A DNA stretch of 46,124 nucleotides from positions 1 through 46,124 of IMG/VR virus record IMGVR_UViG_3300045993_000634. One strand, 5' to 3'. The DNA comes from a virus. Position 1 is the first letter of the stretch; every line of letters begins with the position of its first letter. Below, one piece after another: positions 469-44,950 of the stretch. Under the pieces are notes generated by a model. The model searched no databases, had not been told where the DNA came from, and saw only the letters and a program-made list of their open reading frames with translations. The position numbers were made by a program, and so were the translations under genes.

Positions 469-863
469 GAACGGCGCGTGTGGCCTGTGGCGATTGGCAG
501 CGCGTGTGTACACCAAGCGTCACGACCCGCCACGGATTAACCGCGATCCTGCTTGACCCGCCCTATGGCGAAGGCGCACAGGAATACAGCGTGGGTGGCA
601 ATGCCGACAAAAGCCTTGCGATGGATGTCTGGCAATGGGCAACCGAAAACGGCAACGATCCGCTCCTGAGAATCGCGGTGTGCGGCTATGAAGATGGGCG
701 CACGGTTCCCGATGGCTGGGAAACACTGCGCTACACCGCACGCAAGGGCTATCAACAGGACACGGCCAGCGCCGTGAATCGCTTTCGGGAATGTATCTGG
801 TTTTCGCCAAACTGCTTAAAGCCAACCCGCCACGAGCAGCATAGTTTGGAGCTAGAAGTATGA
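444..863 (+). CDS. D12-class adenine DNA methyltransferase, catalytic C-terminal part
   Basis: This continues the methyltransferase one frame over. It starts with a stretch reading LAARLRTARVACGDW, typical of the family, then TRHGLTAILLDPPYG with the catalytic DPPY motif (motif IV), then the conserved end with WEVxR-like and GYQQ residues. The ATG at 444 lies inside the end of the upstream frame and lacks a clear Shine-Dalgarno site, so it may be only the first Met after the frame break. The stop overlaps the ATG of the next gene (ATGA at 860-863), which shows tight operon packing. Motif I (DPFCGSAS) is on the right-end part at 45743, so both pieces are needed for activity. Confidence 0.78.
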   Translation: MHDLAARLRTARVACGDWQRVCTPSVTTRHGLTAILLDPPYGEGAQEYSVGGNADKSLAMDVWQWATENGNDPLLRIAVCGYEDGRTVPDGWETLRYTARKGYQQDTASAVNRFRECIWFSPNCLKPTRHEQHSLELEV

Positions 864-1759
864 CAACGATGCAACAAGTAGAACCCGCCCAACTCACCAT
901 GAACGAGCAAGAAGAGTTGCTCGATCATGAAGCCATCATCGAACAGAGCCAAGCCGTATTCGTCGAAGTCGGCAACGCCTTAATGGCGATTCGCGACGAG
1001 CGCCTGTACCGTGCCACCCACGACAGCTTTGAAGCCTACCTGCACGACCGCTGGCCCGCCATCTCGAAACGGCGCGGCTATCAGTTGATCGATAGCGCCC
1101 AGATTGCCAAGGTTGTGCCGATTACGAATGAGCGCCAAGGCCGAGCGCTGAAAGGCGTGCCACCGGAACAAGCCAAAGCGGCGTTTGAGGCTGCCAGCGT
1201 GGCCACCAACGGTGCTCCGACCGCCAAGGCGATTAGTCAGGCCGTGGACAGCCTGCGCCTGCCTCCTGACTTTGCAGCCTATGAAGCGAAGGCACTGGCG
1301 TGCAATCTGCGCTTGATTCGCGATGGCGAATACTACGTGACTGGCATGCCCGATGGCCCGCGAATATCGTCGCAGTGGAGTGTCATCAAGAGCTTTCTGG
1401 ACACGCACGAACAGGCGTATCAGGAGAAGGCACGAGCGGCGGCGCACGTTGCCCAACCCGCAACCGTTGCACCACAGCCGGAGCCGTGGACGCCACCAGA
1501 GCGCAATCAGGAGATCGCCACCGCACGCGGCTACCAGACCCGCCTCTCGATTGGCAATCACGACCTCAGCACGGCCAAGGCTCGCCAGCAGGTGCGACAA
1601 ATCGCGGGCGATCTGCTTTCGTGCCTAGAGCGGATCGATGGGCTGCCAACCGTGTTCGATAAGGCGGTGGAAGCCGTGTTGACGAGCGCCGCCGATTTGA
1701 TGACAGATGCCAACTATCAAGCGCTGGTCAAGCGGCTGGATGGCGTGGTGACACAGTGA
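860..1759 (+). CDS. Phage early protein with ParB/DUF3102-like N-terminal region
   Basis: This is a 299-residue soluble protein. Residues about 25-90 read VFVEVGNALMAIRDERLYR followed by FEAYLHDRW and a Y-QLI helix. The pattern is seen in plasmid and phage DNA-binding proteins that resemble ParB or DUF3102 and carry a helix-turn-helix after a 'can recognise the host rhythm' helix. The middle is Ala- and Gln-rich, and the C-terminal third is helical (residues 215-295). It follows the methyltransferase with an ATGA overlap and precedes a small zinc protein with a GTGA overlap. A role in early DNA handling or gene control is inferred from position; the exact function is unknown. Confidence 0.75.
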   Translation: MTTMQQVEPAQLTMNEQEELLDHEAIIEQSQAVFVEVGNALMAIRDERLYRATHDSFEAYLHDRWPAISKRRGYQLIDSAQIAKVVPITNERQGRALKGVPPEQAKAAFEAASVATNGAPTAKAISQAVDSLRLPPDFAAYEAKALACNLRLIRDGEYYVTGMPDGPRISSQWSVIKSFLDTHEQAYQEKARAAAHVAQPATVAPQPEPWTPPERNQEIATARGYQTRLSIGNHDLSTAKARQQVRQIAGDLLSCLERIDGLPTVFDKAVEAVLTSAADLMTDANYQALVKRLDGVVTQ

Positions 1760-6047: not shown

Positions 6048-6065
6048 CGTGCACCATGGTACACA
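6048..6065. promoter_or_regulatory. Copy 1 of the ACCATGGT palindrome (stoperator-like site)
   Basis: CGTGCACCATGGTACACA is an imperfect copy of the 18-bp palindrome found perfect at 40556. It lies 23 bases after the HNH stop and two bases before a rho-independent terminator stem. The other copies are at 10892, 40556 and 43104. Confidence 0.7.
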
Positions 6066-6067
6066 CG

Positions 6068-6095
6068 CCCCGCCAAAGAAGCGGGGTTTTGTTTT
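6068..6095 (+). terminator. Rho-independent terminator after the HNH gene
   Basis: The stem CCCCGC (6068-6073) and GCGGGG (6081-6086) has a 7-base loop and is followed by TTTTGTTTT. It closes the integrase-HNH unit before the promoter at 6105. Confidence 0.88.
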
Positions 6096-6104
6096 GTCTG
6101 TCGC

Positions 6105-6133
6105 TTGACACTCTTGACAGTATAGTGTACACT
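6105..6133 (+). promoter_or_regulatory. Sigma70-type promoter for 6164 onward, with a palindromic -10 region
   Basis: TTGACA (6105-6110), a 17-base spacer, then TACACT (6128-6133). The -10 is part of the perfect palindrome AGTGTACACT (6124-6133), and related TTGACAG, TTGGCAG and CTGACAG words repeat through 6105-6150. This suggests a repressor site laid over the promoter. The same -10 word TACACT is used at 40682. Confidence 0.65.
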
Positions 6134-10296: not shown

Positions 10297-10893
10297 ATGA
10301 GTAATCCACGCACATTCAATCCGGGCAGTGACTTTGCGGCGCTGCTGAATCGAATTTATGAGATCAAGTTCAGTCGGTCGGTACCATTAGTCGTGATTCT
10401 GTTGTCTGGTATTTATGCCATCTATCGCAGCATGCACTATATTTCCAGTTCGTTCCATCTCGATTGGTTCATCGCCGCGCCAACCGCGATCAGCATTGAA
10501 CTGCTGGTGCTTGGCGCGTCGGCCAATGTGTTTATCCAGTTGCGCCGCGATTATGTGGCGGAGTTAGACAAGCAGGATCGGGGCATTACACAATGGGGCG
10601 TGCATCTCGGCATGCTCCTGTTGACCATTGCGTTCCTGGCCCTGATCGGGATTGCTGGGGCTGATGCCTGGAAGCTGACCCAGGATTACGTGGCGACGTT
10701 CTTACTCACGCTGGTGCAAATTGCACAATCGGGGTTCATTGTGTCGTTTGTGATCAGCGCCTTGCTCGACGAGCGCGACGATCTGCGCTCAACCTATGCC
10801 GATCTGAGCCGCCGCACATGCCCGTATTGCGGTGTGTCGGTGAGTCCGAACAATCGCGCCCGGCATATGAATACGTGCCCGAAGAAGCCATAG
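10297..10893 (+). CDS. Four-helix membrane protein with a C-terminal zinc finger
   Basis: The 198-residue product has four predicted transmembrane helices (about 29-46, 58-80, 101-121, 132-157). They are followed by a cytosolic helix and a zinc finger made of C175, C178, H190 and C194. The ATG at 10297 has GGAGAAAGC upstream. It lies 105 bases after the membrane ATPase and in the same unit, so the pair may form one membrane complex whose zinc end touches DNA or the ATPase. The 10192-10296 gap holds only short GTGAAG/GCGCT-type repeats. An operator and a terminator follow the stop. Confidence 0.72.
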   Translation: MSNPRTFNPGSDFAALLNRIYEIKFSRSVPLVVILLSGIYAIYRSMHYISSSFHLDWFIAAPTAISIELLVLGASANVFIQLRRDYVAELDKQDRGITQWGVHLGMLLLTIAFLALIGIAGADAWKLTQDYVATFLLTLVQIAQSGFIVSFVISALLDERDDLRSTYADLSRRTCPYCGVSVSPNNRARHMNTCPKKP

Positions 10894-10909
10894 TGAACCA
10901 TGGTACACA
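10892..10909. promoter_or_regulatory. Copy 2 of the ACCATGGT palindrome (stoperator-like site)
   Basis: AGTGAACCATGGTACACA matches the perfect copy at 40556 in 16 of 18 positions. It overlaps the TAG stop of the membrane gene and lies 11 bases before a terminator, the same arrangement as copy 1. Confidence 0.72.
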
Positions 10910-10989: not shown

Positions 10990-11023
10990 TTGGCATCATT
11001 TGAATTAGTGCTATAATTCAAAT
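10990..11023 (+). promoter_or_regulatory. Promoter with overlapping operator for the accessory block
   Basis: TTGGCA (10990-10995), a 16-base spacer, then TATAAT (11012-11017). The inverted repeat ATTTGAATTA (10998-11007) and TAATTCAAAT (11014-11023) covers the spacer and the -10, so a bound repressor would block RNA polymerase. Confidence 0.75.
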
Positions 11024-22274: not shown

Positions 22275-23543
22275 TTAGGACTGTACGCCACGGGTCAAGC
22301 GGTCGTGTTGGGTTTGTGTCCACGCTTCGATCTGACCAATACGGGCACCGAAGGGATTATTCGCTCGCGGTTGGGCTTGGAAGGTTTCCCCGCCTGCCGC
22401 CCGCGTGACATCCGTTTGCCAGCGATTAATGATGGATGTGGTATCGACACAGCCCGCTAAGGGCCGCGCTAACATGGCACACGCCATGCCCACGATCAAC
22501 CGATCCCATGGACTAGCAACGGCCTGGTTGACCAGTGGCCGCCCGGCCAAGTACCGCACCTCCACCCGATCCGGCGGGCGACACCCCCACCAACCCCAAC
22601 AATCGGCACTGGCCCACGTCTGATTGGTCGTATCGTAGACCGCCTCAGCGGGTGTCACTAAGCCCTGATCGGCATTGCGGATGCCGACACGGGCAATCGC
22701 CTCGGCGGTCGCTGCTGGATCGCTGCTGGTTGGGCACGCACACCACGGCCATGGCGCGGTTTCCCAAATAAGTTTGGCTTGCGCGGTGGCGACGGTCGTT
22801 CCACTCGGATCGGCGCGGCGTCGGCAGACCTCCATACTAGCCATGTAATTGGATTGGGTGGTTGGCTCTAAGCCGTTCAGCATCCCGGCTAGCGCGCCTT
22901 CGTACAGGGTTGGTCGGACGCACTGCCATGCACTCAGGCGGATCGTCACAATCGCACCGGATCGGGTGGCAATCGCCGGATGGATACGCCAGCGCTCGCT
23001 GCGGTCGGTGCCATCAAACCGATCATCAACGCTCACATACAGTTGGATCTCATCGAGTGGTGTATCACTATCGGCCAAACTGAGGACGGCTTGATCCCAC
23101 AGCCCATCCCCGTCGTTATCGCTATAGGTCACAGTTGCGGTTGCCAGAAGCGTGATGGTTTCCACGCCAATGGCGCAGATCTTGCCATCGGGGAGTTCGA
23201 CGCTCAGCCAGCGGCCATCACTGATGGGCGCAGACTGAATCAATCGCCGATCATAGTAGGTTGGCCATGGCATCGTGGCAGTAGCATACAGCGGCGCAAT
23301 CGGATAGTTCAGTTGGGCGCGTACCAATTGCTCGGCCTCTTCCAGTGCTTGCGCGATCTGTACGCGGCTGACGGCATCGCCTGCTTGCCAACCATATTGG
23401 CGCAGCACCGGACGGCAGTTATTGGCATTGGTGGATGGCTTGGTCACACTGACTGGCCCCGTCGCGCCCGCCAAGCTCCAGAAATGCCAGGGATGGTATT
23501 GGGTGATGGATCGAAATGCATCAAGCGAAGTCAGTGGCGTCAT
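22275..23543 (-). CDS. Head-tail connector or neck protein, tentative
   Basis: The 422-residue protein lies between the sugar cassette and the tail tube candidate, where siphophages place connector and stopper genes. Its beginning has AQALEEAEQLVRAQLNYPIAP, like the helical gp6/gp15-type adaptors that open with a short helical bundle. The middle is beta-rich (TATVTYSDNDGDGLWDQAVL). The end is helical (DRLIVGMACAMLARPLAGC, then WQTDVTRAAGG). Several cysteines and CxC pairs are present. Function is inferred from order only. Confidence 0.5.
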   Translation of the reverse strand: MTPLTSLDAFRSITQYHPWHFWSLAGATGPVSVTKPSTNANNCRPVLRQYGWQAGDAVSRVQIAQALEEAEQLVRAQLNYPIAPLYATATMPWPTYYDRRLIQSAPISDGRWLSVELPDGKICAIGVETITLLATATVTYSDNDGDGLWDQAVLSLADSDTPLDEIQLYVSVDDRFDGTDRSERWRIHPAIATRSGAIVTIRLSAWQCVRPTLYEGALAGMLNGLEPTTQSNYMASMEVCRRRADPSGTTVATAQAKLIWETAPWPWCACPTSSDPAATAEAIARVGIRNADQGLVTPAEAVYDTTNQTWASADCWGWWGCRPPDRVEVRYLAGRPLVNQAVASPWDRLIVGMACAMLARPLAGCVDTTSIINRWQTDVTRAAGGETFQAQPRANNPFGARIGQIEAWTQTQHDRLTRGVQS

Positions 23544-40493: not shown

Positions 40494-40545
40494 AAACCCC
40501 ACGCGGCTCAGGCAAGCTCGGCAGCACCCTGACAGCGTGGGGTTT
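40494..40545. other. Large hairpin with a perfect 11-bp stem
   Basis: AAACCCCACGC (40494-40504) pairs exactly with GCGTGGGGTTT (40535-40545). The 30-base loop contains a further TCAGG/CCTGA pair (40508-40512 and 40528-40532) and a GCAAGCTCGGCAGC core. It can act as a bidirectional terminator because T3 or A3 runs flank it, as a structured RNA leader, or as a cruciform DNA site. Confidence 0.6.
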
Positions 40546-40555
40546 CGATGTAGTT

Positions 40556-40573
40556 TGTGTACCATGGTACACA
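40556..40573. promoter_or_regulatory. Perfect copy of the ACCATGGT palindrome
   Basis: TGTGTACCATGGTACACA is a perfect 18-bp palindrome and the best of four related copies (6048, 10892, 43104). It is placed between the late and early promoters, where a phage repressor site is expected. Confidence 0.78.
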
Positions 40574-40658: not shown

Positions 40659-40687
40659 TTGCGATCCTAACGTATCCGTGATACACT
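40659..40687 (+). promoter_or_regulatory. Promoter of the Cro-like gene
   Basis: TTGCGA (40659-40664), a 17-base spacer, then TACACT (40682-40687). Operator O1 TAACGTATCCGTGA (40668-40681) fills the spacer, and O2 TAACGGATGCGTTA (40697-40710) lies between the -10 and the ribosome site GGAG (40711-40714). Confidence 0.74.
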
Positions 40688-40696
40688 GGCAATCAG

Positions 40697-40710
40697 TAAC
40701 GGATGCGTTA
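40697..40710. promoter_or_regulatory. Operator O2 of the Cro-like regulator
   Basis: TAACGGATGCGTTA, the reverse of TAACGCATCCGTTA, matches the TAACG-N4-CGTTA consensus shared with O1 (40668-40681), O3 (40954-40967) and O4 (40979-40992). Confidence 0.7.
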
Positions 40711-40720
40711 GGAGCCTACC

Positions 40721-40948
40721 ATGAACACGATAGCCCTTATCAACAACCTCTTCGACCATATCAAGGAACAGCATGCCCTCCCTTCTGATTCTGCATTAGC
40801 ACGACATATTGGCGTTCCTGATATGTACATCTGGCGTTGGCGGCGGGGCGAGTTCGGTACGAGCACTGACGTACTGGCTCCGCTACTTATCACATACGGC
40901 CCAACCATTCCCCGGTCAGATCTGACTCCTGCTCAAATTGCCGCTTGA
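40721..40948 (+). CDS. Cro/CI-like helix-turn-helix regulator
   Basis: The 75-residue protein has ALINNLFDHIKEQHALPSDS and then the helix-turn-helix SALARHIGVPDMYIWRWRRG (residues about 24-43), where the recognition helix follows Val-Pro-Asp. It is of Cro size and lacks a C-terminal dimer/cleavage domain, so it is more like Cro than CI. Its start is preceded by two operators and its end overlaps the -35 of the next promoter, which also carries two. This points to autoregulation and to control of the early plus-strand operon. Confidence 0.83.
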   Translation: MNTIALINNLFDHIKEQHALPSDSALARHIGVPDMYIWRWRRGEFGTSTDVLAPLLITYGPTIPRSDLTPAQIAA

Positions 40949-40993
40949 CAGTCTAACGTTTACGTTATATACTAGCTATAACGTAAACGTTAG
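40945..40993 (+). promoter_or_regulatory. Early promoter with double operator O3-O4
   Basis: TTGACA (40945-40950), a 17-base spacer, then TATACT (40968-40973), overlapping the end of the regulator gene. A perfect 17-bp inverted repeat with a 7-base spacer (40953-40969 and 40977-40993) holds O3 TAACGTTTACGTTA (40954-40967) and O4 TAACGTAAACGTTA (40979-40992). These repeat the operators at 40668 and 40697. Confidence 0.87.
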
Positions 40994-43103: not shown

Positions 43104-43121
43104 AGTGAACCATGGTACACA
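43104..43121. promoter_or_regulatory. Copy 4 of the ACCATGGT palindrome, covering a start codon
   Basis: AGTGAACCATGGTACACA is identical to copy 2 (10892). Here its centre contains the ATG (43112-43114) of the helicase-like gene, so protein binding would block both transcription and, if the RNA folds, translation. Confidence 0.74.
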
Positions 43122-44950
43122 AACCTATGGCTACAGCACCAATTAACCTACAACAAGAGCGGGCGAAGCGCGCAGCCCCCATTGCCGCCAACCCGCTTGA
43201 GTTACCGTCCGACCCCGATGCGGAACAGGCCTGCATCGGGTCGATCCTGCTCAACCGTGAGGCAATCATCGCGGTCAAAGATTGGCTACTGCCGGAGCGG
43301 TTCCACTTAGCCAAGCATCGCCAAATCTACGAGGCCGCGCTGGCGTTAGTCGCCAATGGCGTGCCGCCTGATATCCGCACCGTGTCGTCCGAGTTGCGGG
43401 TACGTGGGCAGCTTGAGGCAGTAGGCGGCATCCTCTACCTGAATGAACTGATCCAGAGTGCGCCAACGAGCTACCACATTGCGCACTATGCCGAATCGGT
43501 AGACCGTACCGGCTGGCAGCGTGAACTCATTCGGGCCGCCAGCAAGTTAATAGCAACCGCCTACGCAAATGCCGATCAGGCCGCTGCTGAGATTGAGGCC
43601 ATCACCACCGTGGCCGCGAACCGACGCCACCACGCGGTGCGCATCTTCCACATTAGCGAACTCTGGGCAGAACAGTTCCCCCCGCTCCAAATCTTGATTG
43701 AGGGCCTGCTGTACGAAGGCGTGACCCTCTTCTCGGGCAAGCCCAAGATGGGGAAGTCGCTCTTAACCATTGATGTTGGGGCGGCGATTGCAGCAGGCGG
43801 GATGGCGCTTGGCGGCGTGCAGGTCGCTGGCGGGCCGGTGCTGTACCTGTGTTTGGAAGATCCGACCGCTGCGCTTCAGGAGCGGTTGGCCAGCGTGCTG
43901 CATGGCCGTCCCAATATCCCCTTCTACTACCAAACGCAATGGCCTGCGCTCGATAGCGGTGGCCTCTCCGCAATCCAAGGCTGGCTCGACGAGCATGAGG
44001 ACGCCAAGTTGATCGTGATCGACACGTTGGCCAGCATCGCCCCGGCCCCTGATGCCCGAAAGACGAGCTATCAGGCCGATTACGATTCGCTCAAGCACCT
44101 CCAGCGCATCGCGGCCAAGCGTCCCGGCCTGAGCATTATCGTCAACACACACAGTCGCAAAGCTGGCGCTGATGATGTGCTGGACGAAATATCCGGCACC
44201 ACGGGCAAATCGGGAGCCGTCGATCACGTGTGGGTCATGCGGCGCGTGCGTGGCGAGAACGAGGCTGAACTACACGTGCAGCCCCGACGAGCGGCCTCCA
44301 GCGTGCGAGCGCTCACCTTTGATGAACAACTAATTACGTGGCGAATCGGCGGCGATGCGGAAGCGAGCAAAGCGGCTCGTATGCGCCAAGAACTGCTAGA
44401 GGCGCTGGCTGATGAAGATCTGTGGCCATCAGATCTCGCCTCGCTCCTCGATATGGACACGGAACAGGGCAAGGCCAAGATCCGACAGCAGTGCAGCAAG
44501 CTGCTCAAGGCCAAGTTGGTGGAGAAAATTGAGAAGGGCAAGTATCGGTTAACGCGGTTGGGCCAACAGGAATTAGCCGTTACGTCAAGTGATGAAAATA
44601 AAGATCAACGAGATCGGAAGATCGGAGATCGGAACTCTGCATCTGGCTTTCGGCAGGTGACAGGCTTCGATGAGGCACCGGAACCAATCAACGAAGTTCC
44701 GATCTCCGATCTTCCGATCCACGGCAATCGATCCGAGAACACAACCGACATTGCCGCCAAGGAAAGCGCCATTGATGGCGTCCTAAAGCCCATTGCGCCC
44801 CAACAGCGCTTCTTTGTGCGCATCCAGATTAACAGCAATAAGGCATCTGACCAAGCCAAAGCGCGCCTAACGTGTGAACAGGCCGGAGTCGACTACCGCG
44901 CACTCTACCGCCTGATACGGGGCCACGAGCCGCCAGAGCAGGCCGAATAG
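43112..44950 (+). CDS. Replicative ATPase: DnaB-type N-domain, RepA/AAA_25 core and winged helix
   Basis: The 612-residue protein has three domains. Residues about 30-135 match the DnaB N-terminal domain (SDPDAEQACIGSILLNREAI, then LAKHRQIYEAALAL). Residues about 185-390 match a RecA-type AAA_25/RepA ring ATPase with Walker A GKPKMGKS (209-216), VLYLCLEDP and a Walker B LIVIDTLAS. Residues about 405-475 are a winged helix (LLEALADEDLWPSDLASLL, then ILKLRLTRL-like). The last 130 residues are linker and a small C-terminal helix pair. It is a likely helicase or loader. The ATG at 43112 has no clear Shine-Dalgarno site; an in-frame ATG at 43127 is an alternative. Iterons lie in its linker. Confidence 0.82.
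   Translation: MVHKPMATAPINLQQERAKRAAPIAANPLELPSDPDAEQACIGSILLNREAIIAVKDWLLPERFHLAKHRQIYEAALALVANGVPPDIRTVSSELRVRGQLEAVGGILYLNELIQSAPTSYHIAHYAESVDRTGWQRELIRAASKLIATAYANADQAAAEIEAITTVAANRRHHAVRIFHISELWAEQFPPLQILIEGLLYEGVTLFSGKPKMGKSLLTIDVGAAIAAGGMALGGVQVAGGPVLYLCLEDPTAALQERLASVLHGRPNIPFYYQTQWPALDSGGLSAIQGWLDEHEDAKLIVIDTLASIAPAPDARKTSYQADYDSLKHLQRIAAKRPGLSIIVNTHSRKAGADDVLDEISGTTGKSGAVDHVWVMRRVRGENEAELHVQPRRAASSVRALTFDEQLITWRIGGDAEASKAARMRQELLEALADEDLWPSDLASLLDMDTEQGKAKIRQQCSKLLKAKLVEKIEKGKYRLTRLGQQELAVTSSDENKDQRDRKIGDRNSASGFRQVTGFDEAPEPINEVPISDLPIHGNRSENTTDIAAKESAIDGVLKPIAPQQRFFVRIQINSNKASDQAKARLTCEQAGVDYRALYRLIRGHEPPEQAE

Follow-up and report, generated by a model that had tools for sequence, protein, structure and literature searches.

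The 46,124-nucleotide viral sequence that was analysed in full (hereafter the window, also designated G000) contains four copies of an 18-bp palindrome that, as read from sequence, are very probably dispersed loading sites of the parS type, and it may be proposed with high confidence that a ParT-like protein, the product of positions 860-1759 in the same genome, binds and loads at them. When the 18-mer was sought with up to three mismatches allowed, exactly four matches were found in the 46-kb window: a perfect copy at 40556, and copies at 6048, 10892 and 43104 that carry two mismatches each (rather than the one to three changes ascribed to them in a first-pass annotation of this DNA). The next best 18-mer in the window differs at five positions, the core ACCATGGT does not occur in the window beyond the four sites, a reversed-pattern control gave no match there, and dinucleotide shuffles gave a mean count of 0.02, with a maximum of 1. 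The presence of four copies in noncoding gaps, as first annotated, is therefore real, and their number is not that expected by chance.

The perfect copy, site A (40556-40573, TGTGTACCATGGTACACA), lies at the left edge of the immunity region between a leftward late operon and a rightward HTH gene, and thus between divergent operons as had been described. Site B (6048-6065, plus strand, CGTGCACCATGGTACACA) is found downstream of integrase and HNH genes, where it lies 22 bases past a stop codon and is immediately followed by an intrinsic terminator (6067-6087, plus strand) and then by a promoter-like element, TTGACA-17-TACACT (6105-6133, plus strand), that is kept in the relative G001. Site C (10892-10909, plus strand, AGTGAACCATGGTACACA) overlaps a TAG stop codon and precedes both a terminator-like GC hairpin with T's and a second promoter-like element that is also kept in G001, TTGGCA-16-TATAAT (10990-11017, plus strand), so that two of the four copies indeed sit by a stop codon and before a terminator. 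Site D (43104-43121, plus strand), which is identical to site C, lies just upstream of the gene for a dnaB-like helicase (43127-44950, plus strand) and was originally thought to cover its start codon, since an ATG at 43112 overlaps the site; comparison with G001 led to re-assignment of that start from 43112 to 43127, and the site would therefore probably lie outside the start codon.

Searches of viral contigs, using both the pattern and DnaB, identified two informative relatives: G001 (IMGVR_UViG_3300045993_000716), with a DnaB protein approximately 72% identical to that of the window, and G013 (IMGVR_UViG_3300033067_001598), with a DnaB protein 50% identical to it. Among INPHARED phage records the region had no close relative at either the DNA or the protein level, and both there and in a DnaB-based genome search the DnaB matches were distant. 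The sites are not missing from a relative with equivalent gaps: G001 carries five, of which four occupy gaps equivalent to those of the window and one is additional, and the bases kept at sites A, B, C and D are 17/18, 17/18, 18/18 and 16/18, respectively. Sites B (6048), C (10892) and D (43104) each mark a mosaic junction with respect to G001. In G013, the set has been altered in concert to the form GTGAACC-CC-GGTTCAC; a variant site corresponds to site A, the counterpart of site B is GCGAACCCCGGTTCGC, which immediately follows the equivalently placed gene, and a further site is located within the G013 homologue of the 860-1759 gene, a copy that is absent from the window gene and from its G001 homologue.

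The sequence to the right of sites B, C and D is 77-86% identical to that of G001 and the sequence to the left cannot be aligned, a pattern that, together with the position of one site after the integrase gene, would suit a recombination or module-boundary sequence serving the integrase or homologous exchange. An attP site is normally present only once per phage, however, and both the concerted change of the core in the G013 set and the covariation of the site with a ParT-like protein (described below) argue against such a sequence, leaving it highly improbable.

The gene proposed to encode the binder (860-1759, plus strand) specifies a ParT-like protein of 299 amino acids, with a conserved N-terminal domain (residues 1-135) that was modelled by AF2 with a pLDDT of 92.8. 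Structural alignment of that model (VIA-align) gave Z scores of 9.8 for Noc-NBS, 9.2 for Spo0J, 8.2 for Spo0J-parS and 6.2 for SopB, values that are middling for a helical model and are equalled by RuBisCO accumulation factor 1; Foldseek alone returned nothing below E 0.001, and a PDB sequence search gave no match. A family profile that was built without plasmid members matches ParA-adjacent proteins from Streptomyces and Bacteroidota plasmids, with E values between 7e-16 and 5e-43. No Pfam match to the ParB CTPase N-domain was found in the protein, its predicted N-terminus consists of helices only, and the model would assign it the ParT-like combination of a ParB-type HTH DNA-binding (M) domain with no CTPase N-domain. 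The SRR-type N-terminus that is present in the family members L227 and L246 is absent from the window protein, which starts MTTMQQVEP. The product is most likely a ParT-type, ParB-like protein that lacks the CTPase domain, and the comparison with ParT was made through L227 (a ParA-linked, SRR-bearing homologue) rather than through the ParT protein of plasmid SCP2 itself. Its predicted recognition helix (residues 70-83, encoded at 1067-1108, plus strand, and containing R71, R72, Y74 and Q75) was placed by the AF2 model and by covariation with the half-site. Three other HTH proteins, encoded at 40721, 6444 and 11354, had been nominated as possible binders; the ParT-like protein is instead the best candidate.

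For the ParT protein of the Streptomyces plasmid SCP2, ChIP-seq and BLI experiments demonstrated binding to a parS that is an 18-bp inverted repeat and that falls within parT itself (PMC12260392). In the portions of that report drawn upon here, approximately 100 homologues are noted, of which the ParA-associated ones come mostly from Actinomycetota and the others are given no settled role; in-gene sites in other homologues, a recognition code and dispersed sites are not described in those portions, in which in-gene parS is a trait of the one studied member and not part of the family definition. A set of 60 family genes was collected by protein search; their sources are viruses, plasmids (cyanobacterial, Streptomyces, Bacteroidota and Deinococcus) and chromosomes, including genomes of the Dehalococcoidia phylum (in Chloroflexota-centred genomes the family is seldom carried, at 7 of 400). 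In 46 of the 60, an inverted repeat whose arms span 7 or more positions lies within the gene just past the recognition helix, against an expectation from base composition of approximately 0.04 per gene, and the repeats differ in sequence between members. The 26.6 kb of family genes contain 18 perfect 16-bp palindromes, where approximately 0.4 would be expected for random sequence, and the 358 kb of flanking DNA contain 14. Three viral contigs that were found by DNA pattern alone (L019, L031 and L034) have the palindrome within a family gene, in the same loop, between the HTH and a NERQARPL motif. In family genes the palindrome is translated in different frames (VYHGTQ, GTMVP and SPMGD), which indicates selection on the DNA rather than on the peptide. 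Whole-contig scans of other family viruses found mostly a single, in-gene copy, with a second copy in G037 and one site outside the gene in G029 as the exceptions, and dispersal is therefore a feature of the lineage to which the window belongs.

Several plasmid members of the family display additional arrangements. Tandem repeats of the in-gene site (NVTHGSQ / DATCGSQ) are found at 3187-3322 of L148 and 3154-3260 of L149, both from cyanobacterial plasmids, so that arrays of sites can grow inside the gene. L230 and L231, from Spirosoma and Emticicia plasmids, share an identical 22-bp palindrome, TTTGTCGGAAATTTCCGACAAA, inside a ParT-like gene beside ParA, and represent ParATS-like loci outside Actinomycetota. 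A very long, odd-centred in-gene palindrome, AAAATGTGATCCATTGGATCACATTTT, is found in the ParT-like genes of L236 and L240 (Nostoc and Stanieria plasmids).

The in-gene location of the site, beside the helix that reads it, would make the specificity of the family readable. Across 44 distinct protein-site pairs, the four helix positions that follow a conserved W (R71, R72, Y74 and Q75 in the window) covary with half-site bases, with z scores of 10.6 for residue 75 and position 4, 10.0 for residue 71 and position 6, 5.9 for residue 72 and position 4, and 5.7 for residue 74 and position 7; for each main pair, none of 2000 permutations reached the observed covariation. R75 is accompanied by G at position 4 in 16 of 18 cases, Q75 by T at that position when R72 is also present (9/10) and by C when it is not (8/8), R71 by C at position 6 in all 17 cases, and Y74 by A at position 7 in 28 of 31. 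Family members are related, and the P values weaken as clustering is loosened: Fisher tests gave 9e-7 and 1.1e-6 at 60% identity and 0.002-0.003 at 50%, and significance was lost at 45%, where the eight remaining clusters are too few. The rules were fixed before L243-L250 and the odd-centred repeats of L122, L137, L233, L235, L241 and L242 were examined; among these new members nine obeyed them, and L249 failed at position 7. The quadruple of the window protein, RR-YQ, is common only to members whose half-site is TGGTnCAC, which is the half-site of the dispersed copies in the window, and those members are only 36-39% identical to the window protein outside the helix. The code further predicts that a Q75R substitution would shift preference from ACCATGGT to CCCATGGG. 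This residue-base covariation lends strong support to a match between protein and site, and on sequence grounds the palindromes very probably pair with the protein of 860-1759.

The same covariation bears on two quite different explanations of the palindromes. One of these regards them as RNA-level elements that form a transcript hairpin near 3' ends, as might be suggested by the ability of palindromes to fold in that manner and by the terminators that follow sites B and C. A mismatch falls within the would-be stem in three of the four window copies, however, most family sites remain self-complementary at their centre, where a hairpin loop would not require it, and the covariation ties the site to protein residues; the probability of this explanation is accordingly negligible. 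The other holds that the palindromes are stoperators or operators of a conventional CI-like or Cro-like HTH repressor that silences the prophage, as gp71 does for L5. The short gaps, the orientation of the sites with transcription (the right half, GGTACACA, is intact in all four copies), the terminators that adjoin two of them and the CI-like and Cro-like genes of the relatives (the XRE repressor gene of G001 lies at 22535-22888 in reversed orientation) all favour such a role. Against it, G001 and G013 have no palindrome in their CI/Cro-like divergent intergenic regions, the window retains all of its sites without having a CI-like gene at the corresponding position, only four or five sites exist and these are symmetric rather than asymmetric, and the covariation links the site to another protein; among the genes scanned, neither Pfam nor PHROGs named a repressor of the L5 gp71 type. 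Conventional repressor operators are thus very unlikely. RNA hairpins, CI operators and att-type sites were rejected on the points listed for each.

The immunity region displays several further features. The segment 40384-40721 of the window is without the leftward genes for a CI-like XRE repressor and a lipoprotein-like protein that face the Cro-like gene in G001 and G013, and may, to judge from that comparison, have undergone a deletion. A GC-stem hairpin (AAACCCC...CTCAGGnAAGCTYGGCAGCACC...GGGGTTT, 40494-40545) lies directly to the left of site A, is kept in G001 and has a similar counterpart in G013; it is possibly a terminator or a small RNA, and at Rfam gathering thresholds neither it nor any other part of the window or relatives gave a match. 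A near-perfect palindrome of 17 pairs at 40953-40993 (CTAACGTTTACGTTATATA...AACGTAAACGTTAG) and a second inverted repeat at 40670-40715 (CTAACGTATCCGT...ACGGATGCGTTAG) are both unlike the sites studied here, and are likely operators of the Cro-like protein.

In the mechanism proposed for the ParT-like protein, two subunits would read the two TGGTnCAC half-sites of a palindrome through the recognition-helix residues R71, R72, Y74 and Q75. Within this phage lineage the in-gene copy is absent (in the window and G001) or kept (in G013), and four or five copies are spread over positions next to operon ends, ahead of promoters and in front of dnaB. By homology to ParT, for which sliding on DNA is described as nucleotide-independent in the SCP2 report (PMC12260392), the protein might load onto the DNA at every site and slide along the adjoining sequence; clamps of the type formed by the plasmid protein KorB, positioned at various places in the early region, could then dampen or coordinate promoters much as stoperators do.

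The SRR N-terminus of SCP2 ParT, according to the same portions of that report, contacts ParA (PMC12260392). No match to PF13614 or PF01656 exceeded the cut-off in the window, G001, G013 or the other family phage records searched, and plain partition is therefore unlikely; in combination with the lack of an SRR-type N-terminus, this leaves the partition role known for ParT unsupported. The same observations weigh against a dispersed centromere that would serve a plasmid-like prophage stage by means of a host or unrecognised ParA, and the serine integrase of the phage also suggests chromosomal lysogeny instead. Such a centromere would be in keeping with the ParT-like nature of the protein, with the ParA genes that adjoin its plasmid relatives and with the dispersed centromere sites of phage N15, and is regarded as unlikely. 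Given the pairing of protein and site, a regulatory role, for which the positions of the sites and the analogy with KorB are the basis, may be assigned somewhat less than an even chance; a role in replication, packaging or some other process appears rather unlikely, and segregation with a host or other ParA unlikely. A clamp or repressor network resembling that of KorB is favoured, by analogy, as the most economical reading. It is suggested only tentatively that an in-gene parS, at first the self-contained site of a ParB-like clamp that needs no CTP, became in this phage lineage a set of genome-wide loading stations that regulate early genes without ParA, within a ParT-like family that carries a readable specificity tag.

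An in-gene site that is so far known, from the published portions cited above, for one ParT protein (that of SCP2) now looks like a family-wide rule that extends over viruses and plasmids and over several phyla. With it comes a recognition code of three to four residues that can be read directly from genomes, so that dozens of proteins annotated as 'hypothetical' acquire a predicted binding site. The phage lineage described here, with its sites outside the gene and spread over the genome, makes it possible to test in a definite case whether a CTP-independent clamp can act in gene regulation.

The arrangement can be compared with four known systems. The stoperators of mycobacteriophage L5 are asymmetric 13-bp sites, some 20-30 in number, that are bound by the repressor gp71 and are scattered over short gaps in an orientation that follows transcription. 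The first-pass annotation had likened the present sites to them while noting a difference in sequence: the layout of that analogy stands, in that both sets are scattered over the short gaps of a temperate phage genome and follow the direction of transcription, and the protein and site family do not, the window sites being four symmetric 18-bp palindromes and their proposed binder a ParT-like protein unrelated to gp71. Phage N15, which persists as a linear plasmid prophage, likewise has ParB-type sites (those of SopB) spread over a temperate phage genome, and differs in its plasmid life and in encoding SopA and a CTPase-type SopB. KorB of plasmid RK2 is a ParB-like protein whose OB operators are dispersed over a mobile element (PMC11790492), and the clamp-mediated regulation proposed for the window protein would resemble its own; KorB, however, is a CTPase clamp that works with KorA, whereas the window binder has no CTPase domain, and the site sequences differ. 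ParT-parS of the Streptomyces plasmid SCP2 (PMC12260392) shares with the window system a ParB-type HTH protein without a CTPase domain and an inverted-repeat site of 16-18 bp that across the family lies mostly within its own gene, whereas the window lineage is that of a phage, with no detectable ParA and no SRR peptide, in which several sites are dispersed over the genome and, in the window and G001, none remains in the gene.
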